From contig CP107851.1 in the NCBI GenBank assembly GCA_036013505.1, positions 2,604,001 through 2,668,000 on the forward strand: DNA of 64,000 bases, read 5' to 3'. The stretch is from Streptomyces sp. NBC_00510. GTDB taxonomy: Bacteria > Actinomycetota > Actinomycetes > Streptomycetales > Streptomycetaceae. The translations under genes were made by a program, and so were the position numbers. The notes beneath the pieces were generated by a model that searched no databases, had not been told where the DNA came from, and worked only from the letters and a program-made list of their open reading frames with translations. Of the stretch, positions 39,204 through 54,093 are shown in pieces (position 1 is the stretch's first letter; each line of letters starts with the position of its first letter).

Positions 39204-40188
39204 CCAGTCTGGTCTTCAGGACTTTAGCCAGATGACGAGCGCGGCCACAGTGACGGTGCCAAAGAAGACGTAGCCGCGCTTGTCGTAGCGAGTAGCCACC
39301 GCTCGGTGGTTCTTGAGCTTGTTGATGGCCCGCTCGACGGTGTTCCGCTTCTTGTACCGCTCCTCGTCGAAGCCCGGCGGCCGTCCGCCGCGTGATCCCT
39401 TACGCAGGCAGGCGGCCCGGCTGTCGGTCTTCTCCGGGATCGTGTGCCGAATACCTCGGCGCCGCAGGTACTCACGACAGGGGTGGTTGCTGTAGGCCTT
39501 GTCCGCGGCGACGCTGTCCGGCTTGCTGCGGGGCCTGCCCGACCCGACTCGAGGAACACAGATCTTCTCCAGTACCGGCTTGAACTGTGGGCTGTCGCCG
39601 CGTTGGCCTGGGGTGATCAGCAGGGACAGCGGGCGGCAGCGTCCGTCTGCGCTCAGGTGGATCTTGCTGGTGAAGCCGCCCCGCGAGCGGCCCAGTCCCT
39701 CACCGCTTCCACCACCTCCGCCAGCCGGTCGGCCAGGCTCTGCCACGGAGGTTCGGCCTGGTGTTCCGCCGCGTCGTCCCCCTTTGACGTGGCCGGGGCG
39801 GGCGGCGGATCGTTGCGAGCGCCGGCCGCGTGCTGGTGCGCGCGCACTCGTCGAATCGACCGAGACGTCCCAGTCGATGTCACCCGCGGAGTCGGCCGCG
39901 GCCTGGACTTGCTGCAGCAGACGTTCCCAGGTGCCGTCCGCCGACCACAGCCGGTGGCGCTCGTAGACCGTCTTCCACGGCCCTAACCGCTCGGGCAGGT
40001 CACGCCACTGCACCCCGGTCGGCACCCGGTGCAAGATCCCGCCGATGACCTGACGGTGGTTCCGCCAGCGCCCACAACGGCCGTTGCTCACTGGCAGGAA
40101 CGGCCGCAGCCGTTCCCACTCGGCAACCGACAAGTCACCACGCTGATCCCGCCCCACGCCCGGACCAACGAGCCGCAGACGAGCTAGT
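39203..40188. mobile_element. IS5-family insertion sequence
   Basis: The element is defined by its DDE transposase on the minus strand. Candidate terminal repeats are ACCAGTCTGGTCTTCAGG at the left (39203) and the complement of the right end, ACTAGCTCGTCTGCGG (ending at 40188), matching at about 13 of 17 positions. The exact borders and target duplication are not certain. It interrupts the small gene at 38940 and abuts a hydrolase fragment. Confidence 0.7.
39216..40157 (-). pseudogene. IS5-family transposase with two compensating frameshifts
   Basis: The uninterrupted 313-codon frame starts MGRDQRGDLSVAEWERLRPF and has all three acidic blocks: DWDVSVDSTS (Asp), VAADKAYSN (Asp) and KKRNTVERAINKLK (Glu). 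Between the first Asp and GEGLGRSRGGFTSK, however, the normal IS5 sequence is in another frame: VRAHQHAAGARNDPPPAP up to WQSLADRLAEVVEAV is found at 39653-39883. In the open frame this stretch is Arg/Gly-rich nonsense. Two small indels, near 39858 and 39690, shift out of and back into frame. The protein probably has a scrambled 60-residue segment and may be inactive. Confidence 0.75.
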
Positions 40189-40565: not shown

Positions 40566-42359
40566 TCAGGGTGGCGCGTTGACCGGCGCCGGTCGACCGC
40601 GCGGCGCGCAGCGGCGGCGCCTGTCGGGAAGCAACTCGGTGATGCCCTGACCGTCGCAGTGTTCCAGCAGGGGAACGGTGACACGGCGGCTGGACTCCAG
40701 GGCGCGGCTCGCCGTTCCCACGGTGAACGGCTGGTCGAGTTCGCTCAGCCGGTCGGCCGCCAGCCGCGGGGCGTCCGGCAGCAGCACCACATGCTCCGCG
40801 AGCCGCAGTACGGCCCCATGGCGCACCGCCGCGGCGAGCTCGCGGCGGCCGAGGCCGAGTTCCGCCAGCCGCTGGGCCCGGGGGGCGGCGAACGGCCGGC
40901 CGACGAGCTCGGCGGTGAGACGGCCCACCGCGTCCGCGACAGCGGCGGGCAGGGAGTCGGGTCCGCTGGTCACGCGCCCGAGGCTCAGCCGCAGGGGTGG
41001 TGTGACCAGTGCCTCCACCAGGGACGTGGAGGGCAGTCCGAGGCGGTGCCGCGCGATGTCCACCGGTACGCCCTCCTCGGCGGGCCGCTCGGTGCCGTAG
41101 GCGGTGACCAGTTCGGTCAGCCGGGCGCGCAGGGCGGTCCAGTGGACGGGCTCGGCGAGCCAGTCGCCCGCGACCGGCACGGTGTGGACGGCCACCCCCA
41201 TCGCGGTCAACTCCTGGCGCGTGACCAGCAGTCGGCGCCGTAGTTCGTCCGCCTCGCTCGGAGCGCCGAGAGCATCGCCCAGTTCGGCCGCGCGCCGTGC
41301 CGCGGCACCACGACGCAGGAGGTCCGGTGGCCGGGGATCGAGCACCGTCAGCCCGGCCAGCACCCGCCGCAGACCGGGATCGCGCAGCACCGCGCGGTCG
41401 CCGATGCGCAGCGGCAGCGGCGCCGGCAGGGTCAGCCGGACGATGTCCGCACCGAGCAGCCGGACGTGTACCGGCACGGCGGCCGAGCCGATGTGGGCGA
41501 CGGCGGTGCGGGGCAGCTCCCCGGCCGGTGTTCCGCCGTGTACGCGCACGTCGCAGCGCAGACAGGGGACGAAGCTGCCGGGCGTGAGCAGTGCGTCGCC
41601 GCGGCCCGTCGACTCCTTGTCGAGACCGCGGAGGTTGACGGCGAGCCGAGCGGTCGCCCGCACCAGGCCGGCCTCCTGGCCCAGGGCCTGCAGCGCCCTG
41701 ACGCGCACGGAACGGCCGGAGCGGGCGGTCACCAGGACGTCGCCCCGCCGGATCCGCCCAGCACCGAGCGTGCCGGTGACCACCAGCCCGCTGCCGCGCA
41801 CGGTGAAGGCGCGGTCGATCCACAGCCGCACCGGGGCGTCGGCGTCCCCGTCCGGCAGTCGCGCGGCCAGCCGGTCGAGGGCGGCGCGCAACTCCGCGAG
41901 GCCCGTGCCGGTGCGGGCGCTGACGGCCACGGCCTCGACGTCGCCGAGGGTGCTGGACCGGATCCGGTCCAGTGCCTGTGCCGTGGCGGGGCCGGGGCCG
42001 GCCAGATCGCAGCGGGTGACGGCGAGCAGTCCGTGCCGTACGCCCAGGGCGTCCACGGCGGCGAGATGCTCGGCGGACTGCGGCTTCCAGCCCTCGTCCG
42101 CGGCGACGACGAACAGCACGGCGGGCACGGGCCCCACGCCGGCCAGCATGGTGGGGACGAACCTCTCGTGTCCCGGGACGTCGACGAACGCGAGCCGCTC
42201 GCCCGAGGGCACATCCGTCCATGCGAAGCCCAGGTCGATGGTCAGACCACGGCGCCGTTCCTCCGCCAGCCGGTCGGGGTGGGTGCCGGTCAGCGCGTGG
42301 ATCAGCGTGCTCTTGCCGTGGTCGACATGCCCGGCCGTCGCGATGACCCGCATGCTCAC
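40566..42359 (-). CDS. selB: selenocysteine-specific elongation factor
   Basis: SelB brings Sec-tRNA to the ribosome at UGA codons marked by a SECIS hairpin. The protein of about 597 residues has the GTPase motifs ATAGHVDHGKSTLIHALTG (G1), DVPGHERFVPTML (G3) and TRCDLAG (G4), then beta-barrel domains. The C-terminal winged-helix region (LPSTSLVEALVTPPLRL, GLGRRELAAAVRHGAVLRL, QPFTVGTASRALESSRRV) binds the SECIS RNA. GTG 42359 overlaps the selA stop (GTGA); an ATG at 42353 is a close alternative. It follows selA in one operon. Confidence 0.95.
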   Translation of the reverse strand: MSMRVIATAGHVDHGKSTLIHALTGTHPDRLAEERRRGLTIDLGFAWTDVPSGERLAFVDVPGHERFVPTMLAGVGPVPAVLFVVAADEGWKPQSAEHLAAVDALGVRHGLLAVTRCDLAGPGPATAQALDRIRSSTLGDVEAVAVSARTGTGLAELRAALDRLAARLPDGDADAPVRLWIDRAFTVRGSGLVVTGTLGAGRIRRGDVLVTARSGRSVRVRALQALGQEAGLVRATARLAVNLRGLDKESTGRGDALLTPGSFVPCLRCDVRVHGGTPAGELPRTAVAHIGSAAVPVHVRLLGADIVRLTLPAPLPLRIGDRAVLRDPGLRRVLAGLTVLDPRPPDLLRRGAAARRAAELGDALGAPSEADELRRRLLVTRQELTAMGVAVHTVPVAGDWLAEPVHWTALRARLTELVTAYGTERPAEEGVPVDIARHRLGLPSTSLVEALVTPPLRLSLGRVTSGPDSLPAAVADAVGRLTAELVGRPFAAPRAQRLAELGLGRRELAAAVRHGAVLRLAEHVVLLPDAPRLAADRLSELDQPFTVGTASRALESSRRVTVPLLEHCDGQGITELLPDRRRRCAPRGRPAPVNAPP

Positions 42360-43684
42360 CGACCCGCGGCACGCAGCACCGCGGCGAGGACGTCGCCGTC
42401 GCACGCCTCCGGCACGCACCGCAGGTCCAGCAGCAGCCGACCGCGCACCACCCGGCCCAGCACCGCCGGTTCACCGGTGCGCAGCGGCGCCGCGAGGCCG
42501 TCGGGCAGGCTTACCGCACAGGACGGCAGAGCGGTCCCGGGGGCGCCGCCTCCGCCGACCACCGCCTCACAGGGCACGACCCGGGCGTCCAGGCCCCGCC
42601 GCGCAAAGTCCTCGGCCAGGCGCAGCGTGCGTGTGCGCTGCTCCGGCAGCGGCAGGTGCAGGGCGGCGTGCACGGGTGGCTCGGGACCGCGCAGAGTCGC
42701 CTCCAGCGCGGCCAGGGTGAGCTTGTCCACGCGCAGGGCACGGGCCAGGGGATGACGGCGCATCCGCTCCACCGTGTCGGCCCGGCCGAGGATCAGCCCC
42801 GCCTGAGGACCGCCGAGCAGCTTGTCCCCGCTGGCGGTGACGAGCGTGGCCCCGGCCCGCAGCATCGTGGCCGCATCCGGCTCGTCCGGCAGCAACGGAT
42901 CGGGCGCGAGGAGGCCGGAGCCGATGTCGACCACGACGGGCAGGCCCAGCGCCGCCAGTTCGCCGGCGTCCACGCCCTGGGTGAAGCCGCTCACCGTGAA
43001 GTTCGACGGGTGGATCTTGAGGATGAATCCGGTGTCCGGGCCGACGGCGTCCGCGTAGTCGTCGAGCCGGGTCCTGTTGGTGGTGCCGACCTCGCGGATC
43101 CGGGCGCCGCAGGAGGCCAGCAGCTCGGGTATCCGGAAGCCGTCGCCGATCTCCACGAACTCGCCCCTGCTCAGCAGGACCTCGCGCCCCGCGGCCAGCG
43201 TGGCCACCGCCAGGGCAAGGGCGGCGGCACCGTTGTTCACCACGTGCACGGCCCCCGCGGCCGGTACGGCCTCCCGCAGGGCCGCCATGGCACTGCGGCC
43301 ACGCGGCGCCCGCCTGCCGGTGCTCAGGTCCAGCTCGACGTCCGTGTAGCCGCCGGCCGCCGCCATCGCCTCCAGCGCGGACGGCGAGAGCGGTGCCCGC
43401 CCCAGATTGGTGTGCAGCACCACGCCGGTGGCGTTGTGTACGGTGCGCAGCCCGGCCGCGTACGGGGGAAGCGCGGCGAGCGCGGTACCGACGGCGTCGT
43501 CCGGCCCGATCCGCCCTTCGCGTACGGCCTGCTGGGCGGTGGCGACCGCGGCCTTGACGACGGTCCTGCCCAGCCGCGCGGACACCTCGCTCAGCCGGGG
43601 ATCGCCGAGCAGCAGCGTGGTGCTCGGCACCCGCCGCCGGGGATCCGCAGGCGGCTCCCGCCGCTCGTCCGCCACCCGCGCCAC
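42356..43684 (-). CDS. selA: L-seryl-tRNA(Sec) selenium transferase
   Basis: SelA converts Ser-tRNA(Sec) to Sec-tRNA(Sec) with selenophosphate, using PLP. The 442-residue protein has the family blocks VHNATGVVLHTNLGRAPLS, RGEFVEIGDGFRIPELL, KIHPSNFTVSGFTQGV and the PLP lysine in TASGDKLLGGPQAG (Lys288). GTG 43684 is the first plausible start after the tRNA-Sec gene (43675 is an alternative); longer frames would run through the tRNA. The stop overlaps selB. Confidence 0.95.
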   Translation of the reverse strand: MARVADERREPPADPRRRVPSTTLLLGDPRLSEVSARLGRTVVKAAVATAQQAVREGRIGPDDAVGTALAALPPYAAGLRTVHNATGVVLHTNLGRAPLSPSALEAMAAAGGYTDVELDLSTGRRAPRGRSAMAALREAVPAAGAVHVVNNGAAALALAVATLAAGREVLLSRGEFVEIGDGFRIPELLASCGARIREVGTTNRTRLDDYADAVGPDTGFILKIHPSNFTVSGFTQGVDAGELAALGLPVVVDIGSGLLAPDPLLPDEPDAATMLRAGATLVTASGDKLLGGPQAGLILGRADTVERMRRHPLARALRVDKLTLAALEATLRGPEPPVHAALHLPLPEQRTRTLRLAEDFARRGLDARVVPCEAVVGGGGAPGTALPSCAVSLPDGLAAPLRTGEPAVLGRVVRGRLLLDLRCVPEACDGDVLAAVLRAAGR

Positions 43685-43699
43685 CCCGATCGAAGTCAG

Positions 43700-43792
43700 C
43701 GGAGGCGGACGGGAATCGAACCCGCCTGGCCCGGATCCCGGACCACACCGATTTTGAAGATCGGGAGGGGCACCAGCCCGCCCAACGCCTCC
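43700..43792 (-). tRNA. selC: tRNA-Sec (anticodon TCA)
   Basis: The minus-strand sequence starts GGAGGCGTTGGGCGGGCTGG and ends CCGTCCGCCTCC plus discriminator G. It folds into a long acceptor stem, an anticodon arm CCGAT-CTTCAAA-ATCGG with anticodon TCA, a long variable arm and a T arm GCGGG-TTCGATT-CCCGT. The 93-nt length, long variable arm and TCA identify selenocysteine tRNA. It stands between selA and selD, directly upstream of selA on the same strand. Confidence 0.95.
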
Positions 43793-43848: not shown

Positions 43849-44883
43849 ATGAAGCCAGTTGGCCCCGCAGCCGGATCCGCCGTGCCCGTCCGGCTGACCC
43901 AGTACGCACACGGTGGCGGCTGCGCCTGCAAGATCCCTCCGGGGGAGCTGGAGGCGATGGTCGCGGGACTGATGCCGGGGCCGGGCGGAGCTCGTGCCGA
44001 CGGGGACCGGCTGCTGGTCGGAATCGACGACGGCGACGACGCCGCGGTCGTGGGCACCGGCGACGGCTCCGCCCTGGTGTCGACCGCCGACTTCTTCACA
44101 CCGGTCGTCGACGACGCCCGGGACTGGGGCCGGATCGCCGCCGCCAACGCACTGTCCGACGTCTACGCGATGGGCGGCCGGCCCGTCGTCGCGCTCAACC
44201 TGCTGGGCTGGCCCCGGGACGTCCTGCCCGCCGAGCTGGCCCAGGAGGTGCTGGCGGGAGCGTTCGAAGTCGCCGGAAAGGCCGGCTGTTTCGTCGGCGG
44301 CGGCCACAGCATCGACAGCCCGGAGCCGCTCTACGGAATGGCAGTGACCGGTCTGGTCGACCCGGACCGGATACTGCGCAACGACGCCGGCCGGCCGGGT
44401 GTCCCGCTCACCCTGACCAAGCCGCTGGGCGTCGGGATCCTCAACAACCGCCACAAGCAGACGGGCGAGGTGTTCCCGCACGCCGTCGCCAGTATGGCCG
44501 CGCTCAACGACCGCGCCAGTGCCGCGGCCCTGGAGGCCGGCGCCGTGTGCGCCACCGATGTGACCGGATTCGGGCTGCTCGGCCATCTGCACAAACTGGC
44601 CCGCGCCAGCGCCGTCACCGCCGTGGTGGACTCTGCCGCCGTCCCCGTACTCGACGGCGCCCGCGAGTCCCTGCGCGCCGGGTACGTCAGCGGCGGCACG
44701 AGGCGCAATCTCGACTGGGTGCGCCCGCACCTGGACGCGGGACGGACGAGCGACGACGAGCTGCTCGTACTCGCCGACGCGCAGACCTCCGGCGGTCTGC
44801 TCGTCGCCGGGGAGCTGCCGGGACATCCGGTCATCGGGGAACTGGTCCCCGCCGTCGCCGGGACGACACTGGTGATCCGCTGA
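43849..44883 (+). CDS. selD: selenide, water dikinase (selenophosphate synthetase)
   Basis: SelD makes selenophosphate from selenide and ATP, the selenium donor for SelA. The 344 residues carry the N-terminal loop HGGGCACKIPPGEL, with catalytic Cys25 and Lys28. This position is Cys, not Sec, in this copy. Further motifs are GIDDGDDAAVV, FTPVVDDARDWGRIAAANAL, SDVYAMGG and CATDVTGFGLLGHLHKLARA. It is divergent from tRNA-Sec and selA, so the four components may share a control region of about 56 bp. Confidence 0.96.
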   Translation: MKPVGPAAGSAVPVRLTQYAHGGGCACKIPPGELEAMVAGLMPGPGGARADGDRLLVGIDDGDDAAVVGTGDGSALVSTADFFTPVVDDARDWGRIAAANALSDVYAMGGRPVVALNLLGWPRDVLPAELAQEVLAGAFEVAGKAGCFVGGGHSIDSPEPLYGMAVTGLVDPDRILRNDAGRPGVPLTLTKPLGVGILNNRHKQTGEVFPHAVASMAALNDRASAAALEAGAVCATDVTGFGLLGHLHKLARASAVTAVVDSAAVPVLDGARESLRAGYVSGGTRRNLDWVRPHLDAGRTSDDELLVLADAQTSGGLLVAGELPGHPVIGELVPAVAGTTLVIR

Positions 44884-44900: not shown

Positions 44901-45839
44901 TCACCGGTAGCGGATGTGCAGGTGGTTGTCGTGGTTCGGGTAGCTCGTGGTCAGCCCCTCCGAGATCAGCTGCGGATCGTTGAAGAAGACCAGCTCGACG
45001 TGGCCGGGGGCCTTCGCCCGGATCTCCTGCACGAGCCGGCGGGTGGCCGCGCGGTCGTACGTCGACGACTGCCAGGTGATGCGCCCGGCGGTGCACTGCG
45101 CCGAGTCGGTGCGGATCGGCCACACGTCGATGTCCATCCCGACCTCGTGGCTGGCGTGGCCGGCGATGTCACCGCCGTGCTCGAAGCCCGCGTCGCCGAC
45201 CGGCAGCCGGCCGTTCCCGGTGCCGGCGAAGGTGGCCGCGGCCGCCTCCAGTTGACCGACGGCGCCCGCCGTCGCCCAGTGGGCGTTGGCGTTGCCGTCG
45301 GGGCTCTGCGCGCACATCGTGCCGGTGCCGAAGTTGATGTTCTCGTAGTGCCAGAGCAGGTTCTTCCACGTGGTCGGTCCGACGACGCCGTCAACACCGA
45401 GCCCGGCGTGCGACTGGAAGGTGCGGACGGCCGAGTCGGTGGCGGGTCCGAAGTCCCCGTCGAGGGCCAGGCCGGCGCCCCGCTTGGCGTTGAGCAGCGA
45501 CTGCACGGCCTTCACCGCCGGCCCGTTGTCGCCCTGCCGTACGGTGACGGCGAGCGCGCCCCAGGTGGCGGGCCCGACGATGCCGTCCGCGGTGAGGCCC
45601 TTGGACTGCTGGAAGTCGACCACCGCGCTCCGCGTGCCCGAGCCGAAGACGCCGTCCACGGCCACGGTGCGGCCGTGCGCGGCGAGCAGGTGCTGCAGCG
45701 CGACGACGTCGGTACCGCGGGTGCCGTTGCTCGTCAGCGGGAACGCGGCCTGGGAGAAAGCCTGCGCGGGAACGCCCAGTCCGAGGAGCAGACCGGCCAC
45801 GGCAGCGAACAGCGTGATGATGCGTGCGAGTTGTCTCAT
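44901..45839 (-). CDS. secreted M74 (MepA-like) murein endopeptidase with two peptidoglycan-binding domains
   Basis: The 312-residue exported protein starts with a Sec signal peptide (LARIITLFAAVAGLLLGLGVPAQA). Two PG_binding_1 modules follow at about 38-95 (LQHLLAAHGRTVAVDGVFG) and 98-158 (VQSLLNAKRGAGLALDGDFG). The catalytic part resembles penicillin-insensitive endopeptidase MepA: ASHEVGMDIDVWP and NHDNHLHIRYR supply the metal His and Asp. MepA enzymes cut D-Ala-diaminopimelate cross-links in the cell wall. It is followed closely by the DUF1906 gene on the same strand, 10 nt apart. Confidence 0.88.
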   Translation of the reverse strand: MRQLARIITLFAAVAGLLLGLGVPAQAFSQAAFPLTSNGTRGTDVVALQHLLAAHGRTVAVDGVFGSGTRSAVVDFQQSKGLTADGIVGPATWGALAVTVRQGDNGPAVKAVQSLLNAKRGAGLALDGDFGPATDSAVRTFQSHAGLGVDGVVGPTTWKNLLWHYENINFGTGTMCAQSPDGNANAHWATAGAVGQLEAAAATFAGTGNGRLPVGDAGFEHGGDIAGHASHEVGMDIDVWPIRTDSAQCTAGRITWQSSTYDRAATRRLVQEIRAKAPGHVELVFFNDPQLISEGLTTSYPNHDNHLHIRYR

Positions 45840-45849
45840 GGTTCCTTCC

Positions 45850-47622
45850 TCACTTTCCTGACTGGAGGGCGCCCCAGGTGGCGGGGCCGACGACGCCGTC
45901 GACGCCCAGCCCGCGCGAGGACTGGTAGTCGCGTACGCCCTGTTCGGTGCCCGGGCCGAAGACGCCGTCGATGGCCACCGTCCGGCCGAGCGCGGCGGTC
46001 AGGGCGCGCTGCAGGCGCGTGACGGCCTCTCCCGTCGAGCCGTTCTGGATGGTGGGAGCGGATCCGCGGGACAGCAGGGCGGTCCAGGTCTTCGGGCCGA
46101 CCACGCCGTCGGCCGTGAGCCCTCTGCTGGTCTGGAAGTTCCTGGTGGCGGTGGTCGTGGCGGGGCCGAAGACTCCGTCCGGAGCCCCCGGATCGTAGCC
46201 GGCGGCCTTCAGCAGGCACTGGGCCGCCTTGACCTGGTCGCCGGTCGAGCCGCTCTGAACGGTGATGTATGCGGTGAAGTCGAGGTTCACCCCGGTGCAG
46301 CTGGGCGCGGGCGGGGTGCCGGTGCCCACGTCCAGGTAGTCGCGGTCGATGTTGATCGAGTAGCCGCCGTAGGACTCGGTGACCTCACCCACGTACTGGT
46401 GGATCCGCTGGTGGTTGGACCAGTAGGTGGCCGGCACGTAGGTCCCGGTGTTGGTGTCGGCGGCGCCGTTCCACCACGCGTAGAAGATGTGGTCGACGCG
46501 CGTGTAGGCGCTGTTGTTGTACTCGCTTGCGGCGTCCTTGATGCCGGAGGCGGCGCTGGAGTAGTAACCCGACAGATAACCGCTGCTGTGCAGCCGCTCG
46601 GTCCAGCCGGACAGATAGGACAGCACGGCCGCCTTGCAGGAGGTCGTGGAGGTGTACGCCTCGATGTCGCTGTAGATGGCGCTGCCCGCCGGGATGCCGA
46701 GGCTCGACGCGGCGGAGATGGCGCCGGCCGCGGCGGTGACGCCCTGGGACTTGGCCGTGGCGGGGTCGGCGGACATCTTCAGCGAGAAGCTGGTGCAGGG
46801 CGCCTGGCGGCCTACGTCGATGGGGAACAGACGCCATCCGTTGCCGGTCTGGCTTGTCACCCAGCTCGCGGTCAGGTTCGGCTGGGCGCAGCCGCGGAAG
46901 GAGCCGCTGATGTAGACACCTACCGCGCTGTACGGCGAGCTCGCGTGCCAGGCGTTCATGGCGGTCTGCGACGGCGCGGTGCAGGCGTCGAAGCCCTTGC
47001 CGAGGTAGCTGCCCGGCTGCGGGCCCGCCGCGGCCAGGGGAGCAGTGGCGGACTGCTGCGCGGCTGCGGACTGCTCTGATACGCGGGGCAGTTCGGTGCG
47101 CCTGGCGCCCGCGGTGAGCTCCGCCGAGCCGAGCACGCCGCGTACCAGGCTCTCGGTCGCCGGGGTGTGGGCGGCGGTGACGAGGACACCGGCGTCCTCG
47201 ACCGCGACCCGGATGGTGTCGTTGCTGGACGCGGCGGCCGGGGCGGTGGCCTCGCCGCGCTGCGTCCGCGCCGTCGCCGCCGTCACCTGGCCTGCTGAAC
47301 GTGCGGTGATGGGCTCGACGACGATGCCCGCCGTACGCCCGACGACCCGGGCGGGGCAGTCGTTCTGGTCGACGGGCTCGCCTATGTAGACGGCGGGTCT
47401 GTCGAAACGGAGACAGGCGCGCGGGTTCTCGGTCAGGTCGACCACCTGCCAGTCCGCGGGCACTTCGATACGGTAGCCGTGATAGCTGACGGTCTGCCGG
47501 GTGTTCTCGGACGAGGCAGCCGCCAGGGCGGGGCCGGGGACGGCGGACGCGCCTATACCGGCGAGCACCGCCAGCGCGGCCGTTGCGGCGCGGGTGCGCC
47601 AGGGCGTGCGGGACGACGACAT
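45850..47622 (-). CDS. secreted DUF1906 glycoside-hydrolase-like protein with two peptidoglycan-binding domains
   Basis: The 590-residue exported protein begins with a signal peptide (RTRAATAALAVLAGIGASAV...ALA) and has an N-terminal region of unknown type. A Rv2525c/DUF1906 glycoside-hydrolase-like TIM-barrel domain occupies about 210-430 (GKGFDACTAPSQTAMNAWHA, AVGVYISGSFRGCAQPNLTA, GSAIYSDIEAYTSTTSCKAA, INIDRDYLDV). Two C-terminal PG_binding_1 modules follow (AAQCLLKAAGYDPGAPDGVF and LQRALTAALGRTVAIDGVFG). The domain is thought to act on cell-wall glycans. ATG 47622 is chosen because the signal peptide starts there and AGGA lies upstream. Confidence 0.88.
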   Translation of the reverse strand: MSSSRTPWRTRAATAALAVLAGIGASAVPGPALAAASSENTRQTVSYHGYRIEVPADWQVVDLTENPRACLRFDRPAVYIGEPVDQNDCPARVVGRTAGIVVEPITARSAGQVTAATARTQRGEATAPAAASSNDTIRVAVEDAGVLVTAAHTPATESLVRGVLGSAELTAGARRTELPRVSEQSAAAQQSATAPLAAAGPQPGSYLGKGFDACTAPSQTAMNAWHASSPYSAVGVYISGSFRGCAQPNLTASWVTSQTGNGWRLFPIDVGRQAPCTSFSLKMSADPATAKSQGVTAAAGAISAASSLGIPAGSAIYSDIEAYTSTTSCKAAVLSYLSGWTERLHSSGYLSGYYSSAASGIKDAASEYNNSAYTRVDHIFYAWWNGAADTNTGTYVPATYWSNHQRIHQYVGEVTESYGGYSINIDRDYLDVGTGTPPAPSCTGVNLDFTAYITVQSGSTGDQVKAAQCLLKAAGYDPGAPDGVFGPATTTATRNFQTSRGLTADGVVGPKTWTALLSRGSAPTIQNGSTGEAVTRLQRALTAALGRTVAIDGVFGPGTEQGVRDYQSSRGLGVDGVVGPATWGALQSGK

Positions 47623-47810
47623 CAGGGCATTCCTACTCGGGTGCGGAGGTGAGTGGGGAGAGCGCCGCGACGGATGTGCCACCCGCCGGGACGAGCGTTG
47701 CCCGAGGCCGGCAACCGGCCGGCCGCGTGACTGTCGGGCGGTGCGGGTACGCCCCCCGGGCCGGGCGCCGACCCGGGGTGACGGAAAGCGATGCGTGTCA
47801 GGCCAGTTGC

Positions 47811-48545
47811 TCAGACGCCGCAATTGGGCGCGGACCAGGAGCGGCTGGTGCGTCCGTCCACGTGGGTGTGGTCGTTGTGGTCGGGATAGCCGGGACCGAA
47901 GATGCCGCCGAAGCCGTGGTAGCGCGCCCGCTGCGCCAGCTGGCAGAGCGACGGGCTGCCGACCAGGTCGGCGGCGTCACCGTACAGATGCCGGCTGTTC
48001 GAGGCTCCGCCCGCCGCGCTGTTGCAGGCGTACGAGCGGAATCCGCTGGACACGGAGATCGGGGTGTCGCCCAGGGCGTGCCGCATGGCCTCGAGCTTCC
48101 ACATCGTGCGCAGGGCGTTGGCCTTGGCCGTCGCGGCACTGACGGCACCGCCCTCCCAGGTGGAGTTGCACTTGTTCAGCTCGGAGTAGGCGAAGTGGAT
48201 GGGCGTGCAGTCCGGGTCCTGCAGCGCGTAGATCTTGCTGTACGTCTGGGAGCCCGCGACGCCGTCCGCCGCCAGCCCGTACGCCTGCTGGAACTTGGTG
48301 ACCGCGGCCTTGGTCCGCGGGCCGAAGTTGCCGTCGACGGAGAGGATCTCGCCGAAGTCCACGTGCCCGGCCACCCGGATCTGCAGCTGGGTCACATCGG
48401 CGCCCGACATGCCCTCGGACAGGGTGCGGCCCCAGGTGTAGCACTCGTCGGCCTGGGCCGGGCCGGCCATGGCGACCATACCGCCCAACGCAGCTGCCAT
48501 GAGCATGACAAACGAGAGGACGAGTCGGATCGTACGTCTTAACAT
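47811..48545 (-). CDS. secreted zinc D-Ala-D-Ala carboxypeptidase (M15) with peptidoglycan-binding domain
   Basis: The 244-residue protein has a signal peptide (RLVLSFVMLMAAALGGMVAM...AQA), one PG_binding_1 module at about 46-106 (VTQLQIRVAGHVDFGEILSV) and an M15 catalytic domain like the Streptomyces albus G DD-peptidase. Zinc ligands are visible as His186 and Asp193 in SRHLYGDAADL and His228 in HNDHTHVDG. It trims the terminal D-Ala of muropeptides outside the cell. ATG 48545 has GGAGG upstream. The 329 bp beyond it hold no supported gene. Confidence 0.93.
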   Translation of the reverse strand: MLRRTIRLVLSFVMLMAAALGGMVAMAGPAQADECYTWGRTLSEGMSGADVTQLQIRVAGHVDFGEILSVDGNFGPRTKAAVTKFQQAYGLAADGVAGSQTYSKIYALQDPDCTPIHFAYSELNKCNSTWEGGAVSAATAKANALRTMWKLEAMRHALGDTPISVSSGFRSYACNSAAGGASNSRHLYGDAADLVGSPSLCQLAQRARYHGFGGIFGPGYPDHNDHTHVDGRTSRSWSAPNCGV

Positions 48546-48874: not shown

Positions 48875-49648
48875 CTACCGGAGCCCCGCGCAGGCGACAG
48901 TGGCGATCAGCACGGAGCACACCACGGTCATGCCGCTCAGCCGCCGCGCGAGCAGGTCGTCCCAGCCCTCCCCGTCGCCGGAGAGCCGGCGCAGGGCAGG
49001 CGTGAGCGCCCGGCCCGCGCCGAAGCCGAGTCCGGCGGCCAGAGCGGGCGCGTAGGAGCCCCCGGACAGCAGCACCGCGACCGCCAGCGCGTACGGAGCG
49101 CTCGCCGAGACATAGGTGCGCACGCCCGTACCGAGCTCGAAGCCGAACTGCAGGGCGCCCCACGTCAGATGGCGACGCAGCACGTCCTGCGGTATCTGCC
49201 GTGCGTTCTGCGGCAGCCGCAGCGTCAGCCTGCCCGCGTCGCGCAGCGCGGCGAGCAGTGCCACGGCCACGATCAGCCCCTGCCGTCCGCCGGCCGGGAG
49301 CGGTGTGAACAGACCGGAGAACAACCACAGCACCCCGGCCGTCAGTACTCCGCCGGCCAGCAGACCGATGGTGAACACGCCGAGTACCAGCGCCTGTCTG
49401 TACGTTGCCCGCCAACCTGGCGAGGCCAGCGCGAACGCGCTGTTGCGCGTTCAAACGGAGCCCGAGAGCGAGTAACCGGCAAGGCCGCCGGTGATCGCCC
49501 AGGTCAGCATGGGGGCGTAGAGGGCGGTGGCGATCGCCACCGTCCCCAGCACCGCCACGGGCAGGGCGGGATCGGTGAGCAGCGTCCGTACACCACCGGC
49601 ATGGTTCGCCGGCCGGGCCACGTGGCGGCCGGACTCCCCGGGACTCAC
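48875..49648 (-). pseudogene. integral membrane protein split by an in-frame TGA, last gene of the Mau-like operon
   Basis: From GTG 49648, directly after the stop of the Cys-rich gene, the frame gives one long hydrophobic segment (LPVAVLGTVAIATALYAPML) and ends SLSGSV at TGA 49451-49453. The same frame continues without a break (TRNSAFALASPGWRATYRQA, VFTIGLLAGGVLTAGVLWLF, LIVAVALLAALRDAGRLTLR, ALAVAVLLSGGSYAPALAAG) to 48875. Together it is a 257-codon, four-to-five-helix membrane protein. No ribosome site stands before the second part. GAACGCGC-AACA-GCGCGTTC forms a perfect hairpin starting at the G of the TGA. It could be a nonsense mutation (from CGA or TGG) or recoding, given the Sec machinery 6 kb away. 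The family is unknown to me. Confidence 0.6.
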
Positions 49649-50566
49649 CTAGACCGTCCCGGTCAGCGTGCGCCAGGTGTTCTGGCCGACCACGCCGTCG
49701 GCCGTCAGCCCGTGCAGGGACTGGAACGAGACCACGGCCTGGAGTGTGAGCGAACCGAAGTTGCCGTCGACCGTCAGCGCGTAGCCGTGCTTGTTGAGCT
49801 GCCGCTGGGCGCCGCGCACGGCGTGGTTCACGTCTCCCTGCCGCACGGTGGCGACCAGGACCGGCCACGTGGCCGGACCGACGCTTCCCGTGGGGCTCAA
49901 TCCGTTCGCCGACTGGAACTCCTCGACCATCGCCTCGGTGTCCGGCCCGAAGATGCCGTCGACAGCCGTCGGATGGCCGTGGTGGGTGAGCAGGTGCTGG
50001 ACGGTGTGGACGTCGGGCCCGGTGGCGCCGCGGCCGATGGTCGGCCAGTTCACGGAGCCGGGGCAGCCGCAGTCGGTGGTCCAGCGGCAGATGGACTTCA
50101 CCCAGCCGGAACCGGTGTTGCGGTAGCCGTCGTGGCAGCGCCGCTCGATACCGCAGCCGCAGGTGCCGCAGGCCGCGCTGAAGCGCCACAGCCAGCCGTC
50201 GTAGGTCCCGGCGTAGCACTGGTTCGGCCGCAGGGTCCAGGTGACACCGTCCGACCGGTGGAAGCCGGTGTTCGTCCCTGACGTCACGCACGCGTCGGCG
50301 TACACGGTGCTGGGCCCGCAGCCCGGCGAGCAGTTGTGGTCCTCCGCGTAACTCGGGCACGCACCGGTCCAGATGTCGTAGCCGTCGGCGTACGCCTGCC
50401 GGGCGGCGGAGAACACCCCGAGCGCGGCGAAGCCCGCGGCGGTCGCCGCCTGCAGCACCGTGCGCCTGCGCGGCGCGAACGACGGCAGGGCCCCGCGCCT
50501 GGTCCGCGAGCCGCGGCCGCCGCTCCCCGACCGGCGAAGTGTGGGCACGTCGTCCAGTGACGTCAT
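49649..50566 (-). CDS. Tat-type exported 12-cysteine protein with two peptidoglycan-binding domains
   Basis: The 305-residue protein has a twin-arginine signal (APRRRTVLQAATAAGFAALG, cleavage likely after AYA at 60). A compact Cys-rich domain at about 61-170 carries 12 Cys (70, 79, 83, 93, 117, 133, 136, 138, 144, 160, 166, 168) and several Trp. Two PG_binding_1 modules follow (VQHLLTHHGHPTAVDGIFGP and AQRQLNKHGYALTVDGNFGS). I do not know the Cys-rich domain. The count of 12 Cys and the MauD/MauE-like genes directly upstream recall the methylamine dehydrogenase light chain MauA, but the Cys spacing differs, so this is analogy only. Its ATG overlaps the MauD-like stop (ATGA). Confidence 0.85.
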   Translation of the reverse strand: MTSLDDVPTLRRSGSGGRGSRTRRGALPSFAPRRRTVLQAATAAGFAALGVFSAARQAYADGYDIWTGACPSYAEDHNCSPGCGPSTVYADACVTSGTNTGFHRSDGVTWTLRPNQCYAGTYDGWLWRFSAACGTCGCGIERRCHDGYRNTGSGWVKSICRWTTDCGCPGSVNWPTIGRGATGPDVHTVQHLLTHHGHPTAVDGIFGPDTEAMVEEFQSANGLSPTGSVGPATWPVLVATVRQGDVNHAVRGAQRQLNKHGYALTVDGNFGSLTLQAVVSFQSLHGLTADGVVGQNTWRTLTGTV

Positions 50567-51165
50567 CGCAGGCTCCTCGGCGTCGCGGGATGGATGTCGT
50601 CGAGCAGCCGCAGCAGCGCAGTGGGCGAGCCGAGCGGTTCCGAACGGGCGATCCGGCCCTCCGCGTCGATGGCCACCGCATAGGGGGTGGCGGGGATGTC
50701 GTACGCCGTGAACAGGTCCGCATGGCCACCGCGGACCGGTACGGTGCCATCACCTGTCTGGGGTGTGGGGCCCGCGTAGAGCGCGAACACCTGTGGGGCG
50801 ACAGGGTCGCGCTGACCTGGGTCACGCTGACCTTGGCCCCGGCCCTGATCTTGGCCCAGGCCTTGACGGACCGTCCAGGCTCCGGCTTCGGCGAGCACCT
50901 GGACGCAGGTGCCGCAATCAGCGTCGAGGAACAGCAGCAGCGCGGGGCGGCCTGGCGTCGGGAGGCCGTCGAGCCGTGCCGTGTCGTCCGGCCTGGCCGT
51001 GTCGAGCCCGGGCGCGGGCGCGCCGGGGGCGATGCCTGCCCGCCCGGGGCGGTGCGGCTGGGCGCGCGACAACTGGTGCACCTGCCTGACCAGTCCCGAG
51101 ACGACCAGCGCGAGCAGCGCGATCGCCGCCCACGAGGCGATCAAGGCGCTGGTGGTGAAATCCAT
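50563..51165 (-). CDS. MauD-like membrane-anchored thioredoxin-fold protein
   Basis: The 200-residue protein has one N-terminal transmembrane helix (ALIASWAAIALLALVVSGLV) and an extracytoplasmic thioredoxin-like domain with LLLFLDADCGTCVQVLAEAG (Cys84 and Cys87, CxxC) and IPATPYAVAIDAEGRI containing the cis-Pro. A low-complexity Gln/Gly/Asp-rich insert (QGLGQDQGRGQGQRDPGQRD) interrupts it. MauD proteins help form disulfides in the MADH light chain. Its start lies inside the end of the MauE-like gene (25-nt overlap) and its stop overlaps the Cys-rich gene, so the three are coupled. Confidence 0.85.
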   Translation of the reverse strand: MDFTTSALIASWAAIALLALVVSGLVRQVHQLSRAQPHRPGRAGIAPGAPAPGLDTARPDDTARLDGLPTPGRPALLLFLDADCGTCVQVLAEAGAWTVRQGLGQDQGRGQGQRDPGQRDPVAPQVFALYAGPTPQTGDGTVPVRGGHADLFTAYDIPATPYAVAIDAEGRIARSEPLGSPTALLRLLDDIHPATPRSLR

Positions 51166-51779
51166 CGCGACGACACTCCTTCTGTGGTCCGGTGCACGGT
51201 GGCGTTGGTCGGCGGGTGATCGTGGGCAGCGGCCGGCGCGGTCATCACCGGGGCCGGGGCCGGCTCGTACATGGCGGCGGGCAGGGACCACAGCAGCACG
51301 GTGCAGGAAGGTGCGGCGAGCATCAGCGTGACCAGCTCCGCCGTGGACAGCCGTACCGGGCCGGCCCCGGCGATGACCGCGCCGGCCGCCGCGAGTCCGG
51401 CCAGGGCCGCGGCCCGCCGGGTCACCCAGCGGCTGAGGGGCAGATCCCGGCGCGAGCAGCCGCACGGACCCCCACGACCGAGGGCGAGGACGTGCCGCGT
51501 GTAGAGCGCATAGAGCCCGAGGAGAGCGGCCCCCGCGGCGAGTACGCCCTGCAGCACCCGCTGGTGACCTGTCGTCAGCGCGGCCACGCCGACCACCCCG
51601 AGGGCGCCCTCGGTGACCGGCAGGACGGCCGCCGCGAGCCGGCGCGACTGCGGTCCCAGCACGCCGTGCGCCCGCAGTGCCTCTCCCAGGGCGGCGGGAC
51701 GCGCCGCGTGGGAGCCCGTACCCACGAGCAGACTCAGTACGACGATCGCGGCGGTGAGCCCGCCGTAGAAGCCGATCAC
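51141..51779 (-). CDS. MauE/DoxX-like membrane protein
   Basis: The 212-residue protein has about four to five membrane helices (LTAAIVVLSLLVGTG, VLPVTEGALGVVGVAALTTG, VLAAGAALLGLYALYTRHVL, AALAGLAAAGAVIAGAG, AELVTLMLAAPSCTVLLWSL) and the GGPCGCSRRDLPLSRW loop with paired Cys typical of MauE. MauE passes electrons or disulfides together with MauD during maturation of a Cys-rich exported partner. GTG 51779 follows the upstream gene by 7 nt. The C-terminal tail is His/Ala/Pro-rich and cytoplasmic or external. Confidence 0.82.
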   Translation of the reverse strand: MIGFYGGLTAAIVVLSLLVGTGSHAARPAALGEALRAHGVLGPQSRRLAAAVLPVTEGALGVVGVAALTTGHQRVLQGVLAAGAALLGLYALYTRHVLALGRGGPCGCSRRDLPLSRWVTRRAAALAGLAAAGAVIAGAGPVRLSTAELVTLMLAAPSCTVLLWSLPAAMYEPAPAPVMTAPAAAHDHPPTNATVHRTTEGVSSRWISPPAP

Positions 51780-51786
51780 CGCCGGG

Positions 51787-52488
51787 TCACCCCGTGAGCC
51801 GCAGCTTGAGTCGCCCGAGGGCCTCGGGCACCCGCTCGACGGACGTCGACGCCAGCGGCACCACCGTGGCCCAGATCTCCGTCGACGAGAGCACGAAGAA
51901 CGGGCTGCCGTCGGAGAGTGTGTCGCGGAACAACTCGCCGGACGCGACCGCCACCCCCTTCCAGGGCGGAAGCTGGGCGGTGTGCTCCCTCGTACGCCGC
52001 GACAGCTCCAGCAGCCCGAGGCCGGGCACCTCCTTGATCACCGTCGCGGGCCGCGCGAAGGCACTTCCGGCCGACGGACTGGGCTGGAGAGTGAGCCCGT
52101 ACGTGCTCTCGGCGATGCCCACCGACCGCAGCAGCCCGAGCACTTCGGCCACGCTCAGGCCGTACAGCCGGGTCACGAGTGCGTGGCGCTCGCCGCGCCA
52201 CACGACGAGCAACGGCCGCTCTACGAGCCCCGAGCGCGGCTCGCGCTCGATCGACTCAAAGATACGCAGCTTGCCTTTCTGGAAGGTGAGCTCGGCATCG
52301 GGCGCTCCGAGGCCCAGGGAAGCGGCGACATCGTCGCCTAAAGTGGCCGGTCCGGCGGTGAACTCGACCAACCGCCCACCGACCACCACCTCGACGGCCG
52401 AGGTGCACGCCGCCCGCAGATCGAGGTCGCCCTCCAGGCGGTACGTCCCGCCGTCGAGGGCGCGATGAGTGACGAACGATGCGACCAT
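51787..52488 (-). CDS. hypothetical protein, first gene of the Mau-like operon
   Basis: I do not recognise this 233-residue soluble protein. It starts MVASFVTHRALDGGTYRLEG and includes LEGDLDLRAACTSAVEVVVG, RPLLVVWRGERHALVTRLYG and SPFFVLSSTEIWATVVPLAS. No signal peptide, membrane helix or metal motif is seen. ATG 52488 is chosen over 52494 and 52524 because AGGAGG lies 6 nt upstream. It leads the operon with the MauE-like, MauD-like, Cys-rich and membrane-protein genes, so it may be a cytoplasmic partner or modifying enzyme. Confidence 0.8.
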   Translation of the reverse strand: MVASFVTHRALDGGTYRLEGDLDLRAACTSAVEVVVGGRLVEFTAGPATLGDDVAASLGLGAPDAELTFQKGKLRIFESIEREPRSGLVERPLLVVWRGERHALVTRLYGLSVAEVLGLLRSVGIAESTYGLTLQPSPSAGSAFARPATVIKEVPGLGLLELSRRTREHTAQLPPWKGVAVASGELFRDTLSDGSPFFVLSSTEIWATVVPLASTSVERVPEALGRLKLRLTG

Positions 52489-53127
52489 GTGCATCCTCCT
52501 GGGGGGCGCGGGGCGGTGCGGCATCGCGGCCCAAAGGAAGCTAAGACGAGGGGCATGAACCTGTCAATACAGCGATCGGCGGCGAAGACCGCGTCGAAGG
52601 ACTCGGTGTACTTCGCATCCCGGTCCCGGATCGGAAACGCAGCGAGTCGACCCGCACGCCCCAGCTCGACGGCGAGGTCTCTCGCAAGTTGGCCGCGTCG
52701 GGCTGATGGAAGACGGAGCGGTCGGTGGGCGAGGCTCACGCGGCTGGTGCGGGCAGGCAGCAGGCCCACGTGGGTGGCCGTGGCGAGGTCTCGGTAACAC
52801 CTTGGCCGCCGAGAAGCCCCTGCGGGGTCTACCCGTGTAGAGCCGTTGGTGGCATGTTGGTGCGGCACCACGCGCAGGCTGGCCCGCCATCCGTCCTGAC
52901 GGGAGTTCACGCATGCCCAAAACCGCAATCCCTCAGGGCATCTGCAGCTCCGTCACCGGCTCGCCGACTCCCGTCGGCGTGGCGTGGGCGGGCCGCCCCA
53001 AACCAGGGCGAAAGGAGGCCCAGGCGTTCAGGGCCCGATCCGGGCGCGGGTTGCGCGGTCCGGATCGCACAGCGGGCGGCCCGCGTGCTGCTGTGGCACA
53101 TCACTTACCACCAGTGGAGGACTTTCC
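52489..53127. other. intergenic region between the Mau-like operon and the M23 gene
   Basis: This 639-bp gap contains the promoter of the leftward operon next to 52488, a transposase remnant near 52550-52700, and the promoter of the rightward M23 gene with GTGGAGG at 53114. The rest shows no supported gene. Confidence 0.5.
52550..52700 (-). pseudogene. transposase remnant (rve integrase core)
   Basis: The minus strand reads QLARDLAVELGRAGRLAAFP, then IRDRDAKYTESFDAVFAADR before it breaks off. This is the segment around the second Asp of IS3/IS481-type integrase cores (RDRDxKxTxxFDxVFAAEG). Neither the start nor the C-terminal Glu block is present. A similar remnant lies at 54.3-54.6 kb. Confidence 0.65.
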
Positions 53128-54093
53128 ATGCACTCAGGAAGACTTCGATCCGTTGGCGTCACCGTACTGACCGTGGTGACCGCGTTCCTCGTCGCGCTGC
53201 TGCCGGCAACCCAGGCCCAGGCTCTGCCCGCCTGGCCGTCGATCAGCGAGGGCGCGAGCGGGGTGGACACCAAGGCCGCGCAGTATCTGTTGCGGTACCA
53301 CGGTTCCGGCATCGCGGCGGACGGGCAGTTCGGACCGGCCACCCGCTCGGCCGTAATCAGCTTCCAGACCGCCCGCGGACTGACCGCCGACGGCACGATC
53401 GGCGCGCAGACGTGGCCACACCTGATCGTCTCGGTGAGCCAGGGATCGACCGGCGAGTCGGTGAAGGCGGCGCAGACCCAGCTCAATGCATACGGTGCGG
53501 GCATACCCGTGGACGGGCAGTTCGGACCCGTCACCAACAGCGCGGTGCGCTCCTACCAGAGCTCCCACGGTCTCACCGTCGACGGCACGGTCGGGCCGCA
53601 GACCTGGCAGAGCCTCCTCGGCACCAACGGTGCGGACAGCGGCGGTGGCGGCACCCCGTCCGGTTACTCGCTGCCGCTCGCCCGGAGCGCTGTCCCCCGG
53701 TCGGACTACGCGGCTCCGCACTACGGCACCACTCCGGCCATCGACCTGATCGTGAGCTACGTCCCGGCATACGCGATCAAGAGTGGGGTCGTCGACCACT
53801 ACAACAGCGAGACCTGTGGCATCGGTATCCGGCTGCTCCAGTCGGACGGTTCGCGCTTCGTCTACTGCCACCTCAGCGCACGTTCCGTGGCCGACGGTGT
53901 CCAGGTGGCGGCCGGCACCCGAATCGCCACCACCGGCGACACCGGCAACTCCGGCGCACCCCACCTGCACGTGGAGATCAGGACCAGCGACGGCGTGGCC
54001 CACTGCCCGCAGGGCTACCTGCTGGCGATCTACGACGGCCGCACACCGCCCACCTTCGGCTCTCTGCCGACCAGCGGCTGCACCACCGCCTGA
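53128..54093 (+). CDS. secreted M23 peptidase with two peptidoglycan-binding domains
   Basis: The 321-residue protein has a signal peptide (VTVLTVVTAFLVALLPATQA), two PG_binding_1 modules at about 45-98 and 105-164 (both with ADGQFGPATRSAV-like blocks) and a Gly-rich linker. The LytM/M23 domain has His198 and Asp206 (PHYGTTPAIDL), His248 (YCHL) and His279-His281 (HLHVEI), which form the zinc site and catalytic His. Such enzymes cleave peptide cross-bridges of the wall. ATG 53128 follows GTGGAGG by 7 nt. It is the only plus-strand member of the wall-hydrolase island and is bracketed by transposase remnants. Confidence 0.92.
   Translation: MHSGRLRSVGVTVLTVVTAFLVALLPATQAQALPAWPSISEGASGVDTKAAQYLLRYHGSGIAADGQFGPATRSAVISFQTARGLTADGTIGAQTWPHLIVSVSQGSTGESVKAAQTQLNAYGAGIPVDGQFGPVTNSAVRSYQSSHGLTVDGTVGPQTWQSLLGTNGADSGGGGTPSGYSLPLARSAVPRSDYAAPHYGTTPAIDLIVSYVPAYAIKSGVVDHYNSETCGIGIRLLQSDGSRFVYCHLSARSVADGVQVAAGTRIATTGDTGNSGAPHLHVEIRTSDGVAHCPQGYLLAIYDGRTPPTFGSLPTSGCTTA

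Follow-up and report, generated by a model that had tools for sequence, protein, structure and literature searches.

The operon and the in-frame TGA of its last gene

The locus considered here lies in a 64,000-nucleotide (nt) window of the Streptomyces sp. NBC_00510 genome (contig CP107851.1, positions 2,604,001 to 2,668,000), which is the whole stretch of DNA analyzed and to which the coordinates below refer. An operon of five genes occupies the minus strand from 48875 to 52488. Its members are here called A, B, C, D and E′ in their order, and the last is interrupted by a TGA codon that, judged by sequence comparison, almost certainly encodes selenocysteine (Sec). The features of the operon are as follows.

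A, 51787..52488, minus strand: conserved first gene of the operon, with no Pfam or NCBIfam match
B, 51141..51779, minus strand: MauE family membrane protein (PF07291) with a PCGC motif
C, 50563..51165, minus strand: thioredoxin-like CxxC protein, MauD-like
D, 49649..50566, minus strand: protein with a twin-arginine motif, a 12-Cys domain (residues about 61-168) and two PG_binding_1 domains
E′, 48875..49648, minus strand: predicted membrane selenoprotein of 257 residues with Sec at position 66 (LSGSV-U-TRNS), probably a distant relative of DsbD/CcdA
In-frame codon, 49451..49453, minus strand: TGA, in all probability read as Sec; TGA/TGC exchange in distant homologs tracks SelA
Hairpin, 49408..49424, minus strand: bacterial Sec insertion sequence (SECIS)-type hairpin, CUCGCCA-GGU-UGGCGGG, with a 7-bp helix and an apical loop 33 nt after the UGA

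The original prediction of a five-gene operon is borne out, and its claim that the genes are joined by overlaps or gaps below 10 nt holds from A to D: A and B are separated by 7 nt, B and C overlap by 25 nt, and C and D overlap by 4 nt. For the last gene, however, it holds only if an in-frame TGA is read through. Ordinary open reading frame (ORF) calling places the start of this gene (E) at 49378, 270 nt behind D, and the interval contains a 65-codon ORF in the same frame that ends in TGA at 49453-49451. Read through this codon, the gene (E′) begins at GTG 49648, directly behind the D stop. The earlier description treated this as an ordinary multi-helix membrane protein and gave the gene as too short. 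It made no mention of the TGA or of the cluster of selB, selA, tRNA-Sec and selD that the window contains at 40.6-44.9 kb.

A search for close loci returned 30, of which 29 were kept, all from Streptomycetaceae, Micromonosporaceae and one Stackebrandtia metagenome-assembled genome (MAG). The five genes are whole and in order in 27 of these 29, and one locus (L025) is truncated at a contig end. The same five genes also occur in three loci at greater distance (L045-L047, family f17). Gene A, which has no match in Pfam or NCBIfam, is present in 28 of the 29 close loci as well as in L045-L047 and L093. Weak matches to the D domain in L007 and L037 were inspected and dropped as chance similarities, the latter accounting for the locus removed from the original 30; a 39-residue match in L044/L048 was dropped on the same grounds.

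The codon at the site in question is TGA in 32 of 32 close loci (the window, 28 of the 29 close loci and the three of family f17), where it is embedded in the well-conserved segment LSGSV-TGA-T[R/H]NS, and in 26 of 26 rows of alignment A2. Mean pairwise differences at the first, second and third codon positions are 0.15/0.12/0.34 over the 20 codons upstream of the TGA and 0.11/0.16/0.26 over the first nine codons downstream, such that third positions are the most variable on both flanks, as in coding DNA. No start codon is conserved downstream of the TGA, and in five of the 32 loci the roughly 38 codons that follow it include neither ATG, GTG nor TTG; re-initiation at a usual start codon therefore cannot explain the conserved peptide. 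A start at a TTG overlapping the TGA was also considered and rejected, as that frame meets TAA in L009 and L015.

Downstream of the TGA is the SECIS-type hairpin. The published bacterial SECIS (bSECIS) model (PMC13188914) has a G in the first two loop positions, a loop situated 16-37 nt after the UGA and a minimum free energy (MFE) of -7.5 or lower. With its GGU loop at 33 nt and an MFE of -13.2, the window hairpin falls within this model. Across the 30 sequences of alignment A5 the seven pairs are formed in 90% of cells, as compared with 57% or less when the register is slid, and covariation is 0.378 versus 0.204 in shuffles, none of 500 shuffles reaching the observed value. A different stem (UCCGCUC/GAGCGGA) with the same spacing and loop is found in L083.

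Codon exchange and the selenocysteine machinery

Similar comparisons can be extended to more distant relatives of E′ in a sample of 396 evenly drawn Actinobacteriota genomes. A first search with the close alignment matched 12 of these, and the distant loci inspected from it included eight with TGA exactly at the site and two with Cys. A second search with a broader alignment (A3) found a homolog in 68 of the 396 genomes at E ≤ 1e-5. Alignment A3 takes in nine sequences from the same sample, and it read TGA as Cys, so that the model favors Cys in that column; codon identity was read from the DNA. Stretches were fetched for the matches able to cover the site, giving 65 distant loci in 63 genomes apart from that of NBC_00510, and the site was unreadable in four further genomes (G727, G798, G816 and G883). 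The codon is TGA in 57 of the 65 loci and TGC (Cys) in the other eight, most commonly within WSP- or FGP-[U/C]-GxSM, and 56 of the 63 genomes with a readable site have a TGA copy.

This exchange follows the distribution of SelA, which was sought in 67 homolog-containing genomes and in 13 without a homolog. SelA is present in 53 of the 56 genomes with a TGA copy (in one of them, G574, split and below cut-off) and in none of the seven with the Cys form only (Fisher p 2e-7, which, the genomes being related, is not a formal significance); the corresponding counts are three of the four genomes with an unread site and five of the 13 controls. In G645, which has SelA, one Cys copy and one TGA copy of the family (L129 and L131) reside on different contigs. 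The hairpin shows the same partition: a scan is positive in 54 of 57 TGA genes, at offsets mostly of 33, 29 or 32, versus two of eight Cys genes, and the codon-shuffle fraction is 0.05 or lower in 36 of 57 TGA loci versus none of eight Cys loci. Two divergent homologs with LP-U-GPN at the site (L178 and L179), both in SelA-containing genomes, constitute a distinct subgroup. The Cys-form proteins of L127, L128, L129 and L085 extend by 250-odd residues without a CGC motif, a part that by eye is perhaps beta-propeller-like.

The window itself encodes the machinery for Sec incorporation, 4 kb from the operon:

selD, 43849..44883, plus strand: selenophosphate synthetase (TIGR00476, 375.3 bits, cut-off 125)
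tRNA-Sec (selC), 43699..43792, minus strand: anticodon TCA (ARAGORN; RF01852, 72.5 bits, gathering score 47)
selA, 42356..43684, minus strand: selenocysteine synthase, start inferred (TIGR00474, 401.6 bits, cut-off 267.9)
selB, 40566..42353, minus strand: Sec-specific elongation factor, start inferred (TIGR00475, 279.7 bits, cut-off 242.25)

Among the 32 operon loci, selD lies inside the fetched stretch in 19, none of them from family f17, and in 13 (L014, L016-L024 and L026-L028) it is directly upstream of A on the same strand, an arrangement by which operon and selenium supply may be co-regulated. SelA was found in 13 of 14 operon genomes searched, the majority of which have no sel genes in the fetched stretch. 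By comparison, in a family-level sample of 200 genomes SelA is above cut-off in 24, including all four that contain the D domain, NBC_00510 among them (Fisher p 1.6e-4; a weak D-domain match in G120 was left out of the four).

The NBC_00510 genome has two tRNA-Sec genes above the gathering score and SelA above cut-off twice, while SelB is above cut-off at one place and just below it at the other. The second set (L094, 9.276-9.294 Mb) consists of a selD-like ORF, selB, selA and tRNA-Sec and adjoins a formate-dehydrogenase-like gene that has a TGA in frame (..NQARI-U-HSATVP..); the genome thus keeps two separate Sec systems. Like the operon, the formate dehydrogenase locus combines a UGA-containing gene with its own selA, selB-like, selD-like and tRNA-Sec genes, but it represents a known selenoenzyme family at a separate position (9.28 Mb).

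It is the conserved TGA, its exchange with TGC, the co-occurrence with SelA, the covarying hairpin and the linked sel genes that point to Sec at this codon. As in bacterial selenoprotein genes, a conserved in-frame UGA, homologs with Cys, Sec machinery and a bSECIS hairpin are found together.

The E′ protein and its partners

Judged by the sequences of its relatives, E′ is a polytopic membrane protein that is probably distantly akin to the DsbD/CcdA kind. Among 30 relatives, nine match PF13386 (DsbD_2; best 2e-10) and four match PF02683 (DsbD_TM; best 3.8e-6) at E ≤ 1. In the AlphaFold model of E′ (predicted local distance difference test score, pLDDT, 88; predicted template modeling score, pTM, 0.87), Sec66 heads a half-helix (residues 65-75) at a break in a membrane helix, and a like break occurs at 175-183. 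The first redox Cys of DsbD/CcdA is found in an SPC motif. We take Sec66 to occupy the place of this Cys, and the two helix breaks are presumably those expected of the two-repeat DsbD/CcdA fold. Thioredoxin-like genes near E′ are a further point of likeness. Unlike DsbD/CcdA, E′ has one Sec rather than two Cys and is below Pfam detection. The Sec/Cys column is the sole invariant chalcogen position in the family, and with the second redox Cys missing, Sec is the only conserved redox residue. Profile searches of PDB with the E′ family alignments found no related chain.

The proteins encoded upstream are in part familiar. B scores 41.5 bits against Pfam MauE (PF07291, cut-off 27), in agreement with its earlier assignment. 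C, previously described as a MauD-like CxxC thioredoxin, has the CxxC motif (Cys84 and Cys87) and, by eye, a hydrophobic N-terminus, but at 19.1 bits it is far below the cut-off of 188.6 for the MauD equivalog TIGR02661. The predicted Tat (twin-arginine) signal protein with 12 Cys and two peptidoglycan-binding domains corresponds to D, which has a twin-arginine motif (RRRTVLQ, by eye) and two PG_binding_1 stretches (PF01471, 118.2 bits, cut-off 23, 1.7e-34); the TAT signal profile TIGR01409 matches its relatives in L083 and L090 and not D. All 12 Cys of D (positions 70, 79, 83, 93, 117, 133, 136, 138, 144, 160, 166 and 168) are invariant in the 27 sequences of alignment A1, and the Cys domain is 71-98% identical to that of the window in 26 relatives. 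AlphaFold gives this domain alone a pLDDT of 36, and for this reason no fold is claimed for D.

The original prediction had named two outcomes that would speak against it, namely a known enzyme or toxin family for the Cys-rich domain and a lack of conserved gene order in related genomes. Searches of Pfam, NCBIfam and PDB sequences assigned the Cys domain to no family, and synteny is kept beyond Streptomyces. The notion of a wall-anchored, disulfide-rich protein beside MauE- and MauD-like genes survives with two amendments: in L045-L047 D ends with the Cys domain and lacks the wall-binding part, which indicates that the anchor is not essential to the system, and the suggestion of an effector is unsupported. 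Genes that look peptidoglycan-binding also flank the operon (44901-45839, 45850-47823 and 47811-48482 on the minus strand and, judged by eye alone, 52984-54093 on the plus strand). One flanking gene of this wall type has an M15 peptidase domain, and similar matches occur near E′ in L008-L013.

Comparable partners accompany E′ in distant genomes. By loose motif rules applied within 4.5 kb of the 65 distant sites, a MauE-like gene is seen at 32, a thioredoxin-like CxxC gene at 41 and a Tat gene encoding eight or more Cys at 47. In seven of the 57 TGA loci (L137, L143, L145, L146, L147, L155 and L167), E′ is fused to a MauE-like part with a CGC motif, which makes up the C-terminal half of the protein; six of these are among the 32 MauE-like loci, L155 having been missed by the motif rule. 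The MauE-like parts match the MauE-like protein of L090 at 3.7e-30 to 6.9e-20 (phmmer) and, in five of seven, the profile of the window B family at 4e-10 to 7e-5, both values being relative to a very small database. The counterpart of C in L090 (7241-7825) matches MauD at 3.6e-29, and L083 has MauE at 5.3e-13. The Cys-rich clients are of several types, among them one with 10 Cys (CGHxYTTxSCPHP) and one with 18 Cys and a long C-terminal extension. In 18-Cys Tat proteins downstream of E′ (L138, L144, L160, L163 and others), the C-terminal parts contain GPLGYP-like motifs, which we assume to be LGFP-like; these parts may be another wall-binding module fused to the Cys-rich domain.

This assemblage resembles the Mau accessory proteins MauE, MauD and MauF in that B is a Pfam MauE protein, C is MauD-like and the exported client, with its 12 Cys, is of the Tat type. 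MauF is CcdA-like. The system differs in that the CcdA-like protein here is the probable selenoprotein E′, the light chain family PF02975 is unmatched, and the client D is of another kind and carries wall-binding domains.

A proposed envelope disulfide pathway and the alternatives to it

Computation shows that the Sec codon is conserved and can be exchanged for Cys, that a hairpin follows it, that the Sec machinery is linked to the operon, that relatives of E′ are kin to the DsbD family, that gene order is kept and that E′ is fused to a MauE-like part in some distant loci. The likely explanation for the whole is a disulfide pathway of the envelope that depends on selenium and is encoded by the operon. 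The UGA of E′ would be decoded as Sec by the products of the neighboring selABCD genes, with the hairpin behind it acting as bSECIS. Sec66 and the PCGC cysteines of B could then come into contact to form a split transmembrane thiol relay, and electrons passing outward along this relay would maintain the extracellular CxxC of C, the MauD-like thioredoxin, in its reduced state. C in turn may form or shuffle the six disulfides expected in Tat-exported D, its putative substrate, which would be fixed to the wall through its two peptidoglycan-binding domains. That E′, B and C serve in the maturation of D is somewhat favored, and we hold this part less firmly than the pathway as a whole.

If the TGA were an ordinary stop, a small two-helix protein would end there and E would be re-initiated downstream or produced by low-level, selenium-free readthrough. 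Standard ORF calling does yield two ORFs, yet the distant codon is TGA or TGC and never TAA or TAG, the exchange follows SelA, and behind the TGA are protein-like conservation, no conserved start and a hairpin; this explanation is hardly credible. In 13 loci selD immediately precedes A, both genes being on one strand, which could instead suggest that E′ is a membrane transporter or sensor of selenium species feeding selD, the Mau-like genes being redox helpers. This seems unlikely, although it is the least improbable of the alternatives: distant E′ homologs sit with thioredoxin-like and Tat Cys-rich genes, the relatives of E′ are kin to DsbD, and seven genomes that lack SelA, in which selenium supply would have no evident use, retain the Cys form.

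Two further possibilities center on D. Its Tat motif, 12 Cys and MauE and MauD-like neighbors would suit a quinone-cofactor enzyme of the methylamine dehydrogenase light-chain kind, with the operon as a Mau cluster reduced to its maturation genes, and the 18-Cys relatives display an 'NTCPPGS..AGWW' segment (alignment A7) whose look we take to be common to them and the light chain. PF02975, however, matched neither the NBC_00510 genome nor D at E ≤ 1, nor ten relatives of the 18-Cys type at E ≤ 10, in searches that had no true light chain as a positive control. Further, no light chain is among the PDB sequence matches of D or of ten mainly 18-Cys-type stretches, and Trp50 is not kept in L045-L047, where the GWxW pair alone is kept; we regard a light-chain identity as quite improbable. 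A wall-displayed antimicrobial or effector, with the other genes as folding and immunity equipment, is more doubtful still. D is predicted to be secreted, Cys-rich and wall-binding, and neighboring genes resemble wall hydrolases, but D matches no toxin family and the sequence identity of its Cys domain among the 26 relatives is unlike that of fast-evolving effectors.

Several observations weigh against the selenium-dependent pathway or one of its parts. With respect to the hairpin, two of five covariation measures are not clearly above shuffles (44/500 for pairs altered at both partners and 334/500 for additional pair types), most of ten sequences show no greater stability over the whole 62-65-nt stretch than their shuffled versions (z between -2.40, in the window, and +0.66), L086, L087 and L091 are unpaired in the common register, and the hairpin scan is negative in three of 57 TGA loci (L088, L135 and L152). 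The codon is TGA in every close homolog, the Cys form being known only in distant ones. SelA is missing from three genomes with a TGA copy (G737, 94% complete; G775, 68%; G788, 73%) and from one operon genome, the M. phytophila draft (G918). The MAG locus L029 has A-D without E′, and a Tat Cys-rich gene was not seen in 18 of the 65 distant loci by the loose motifs used, some of these loci lying at contig ends. E′ itself matches no Pfam family and no NCBIfam model (E ≤ 10). Its model has no PDB match in Foldseek at E ≤ 0.001, and in a fold comparison (VIA) NqrE (Z 6.2) and RnfA (Z 5.6) rank level with unrelated transporters of the MFS type; CcdA is absent from these weak matches, an absence that proves nothing.

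The family appears to be new. NCBIfam 20.0 has no model that matches E′ (E ≤ 10) or its 30-member alignment (E ≤ 1), in keeping with which ordinary gene calling would cut the family at the TGA. A literature search found no report of it, and it does not appear in a 2026 table of 119 selenoprotein families (PMC13188914). TsoB (NF045694), listed in Table 1 of the same source, is, by its name alone, likewise a selenoprotein with a DsbD-like part, but it is distinguished by a rhodanese part and by a UxxxxU motif that contains two Sec (PMC13188914); the TsoB model matches neither E′ (E ≤ 10) nor the 30-member alignment (E ≤ 1).

More broadly, the chances seem evenly balanced that these loci represent an unrecognized and widespread actinobacterial envelope pathway, in which a one-selenium, DsbD/CcdA-like 'SPUG' protein and its MauE- and MauD-like partners build diverse Tat-exported, wall-displayed Cys-rich proteins. 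If so, the 'SPUG' pathway may be a main reason that many Actinobacteriota keep Sec machinery, a second full sel set being kept in addition in this genome, and membrane thiol transport by means of one Sec would represent a novel route for electrons or disulfides across the membrane. A demand for selenium outside formate dehydrogenase bears on why a Streptomyces-type genome carries two complete sel sets. The finding also draws attention to a class of exported Cys-rich proteins about which little is known. Finally, a transposase-like ORF (39216-40157, minus strand; by eye) resides near selB in the window, and conceivably the island formed by the sel genes and the operon might be mobile.

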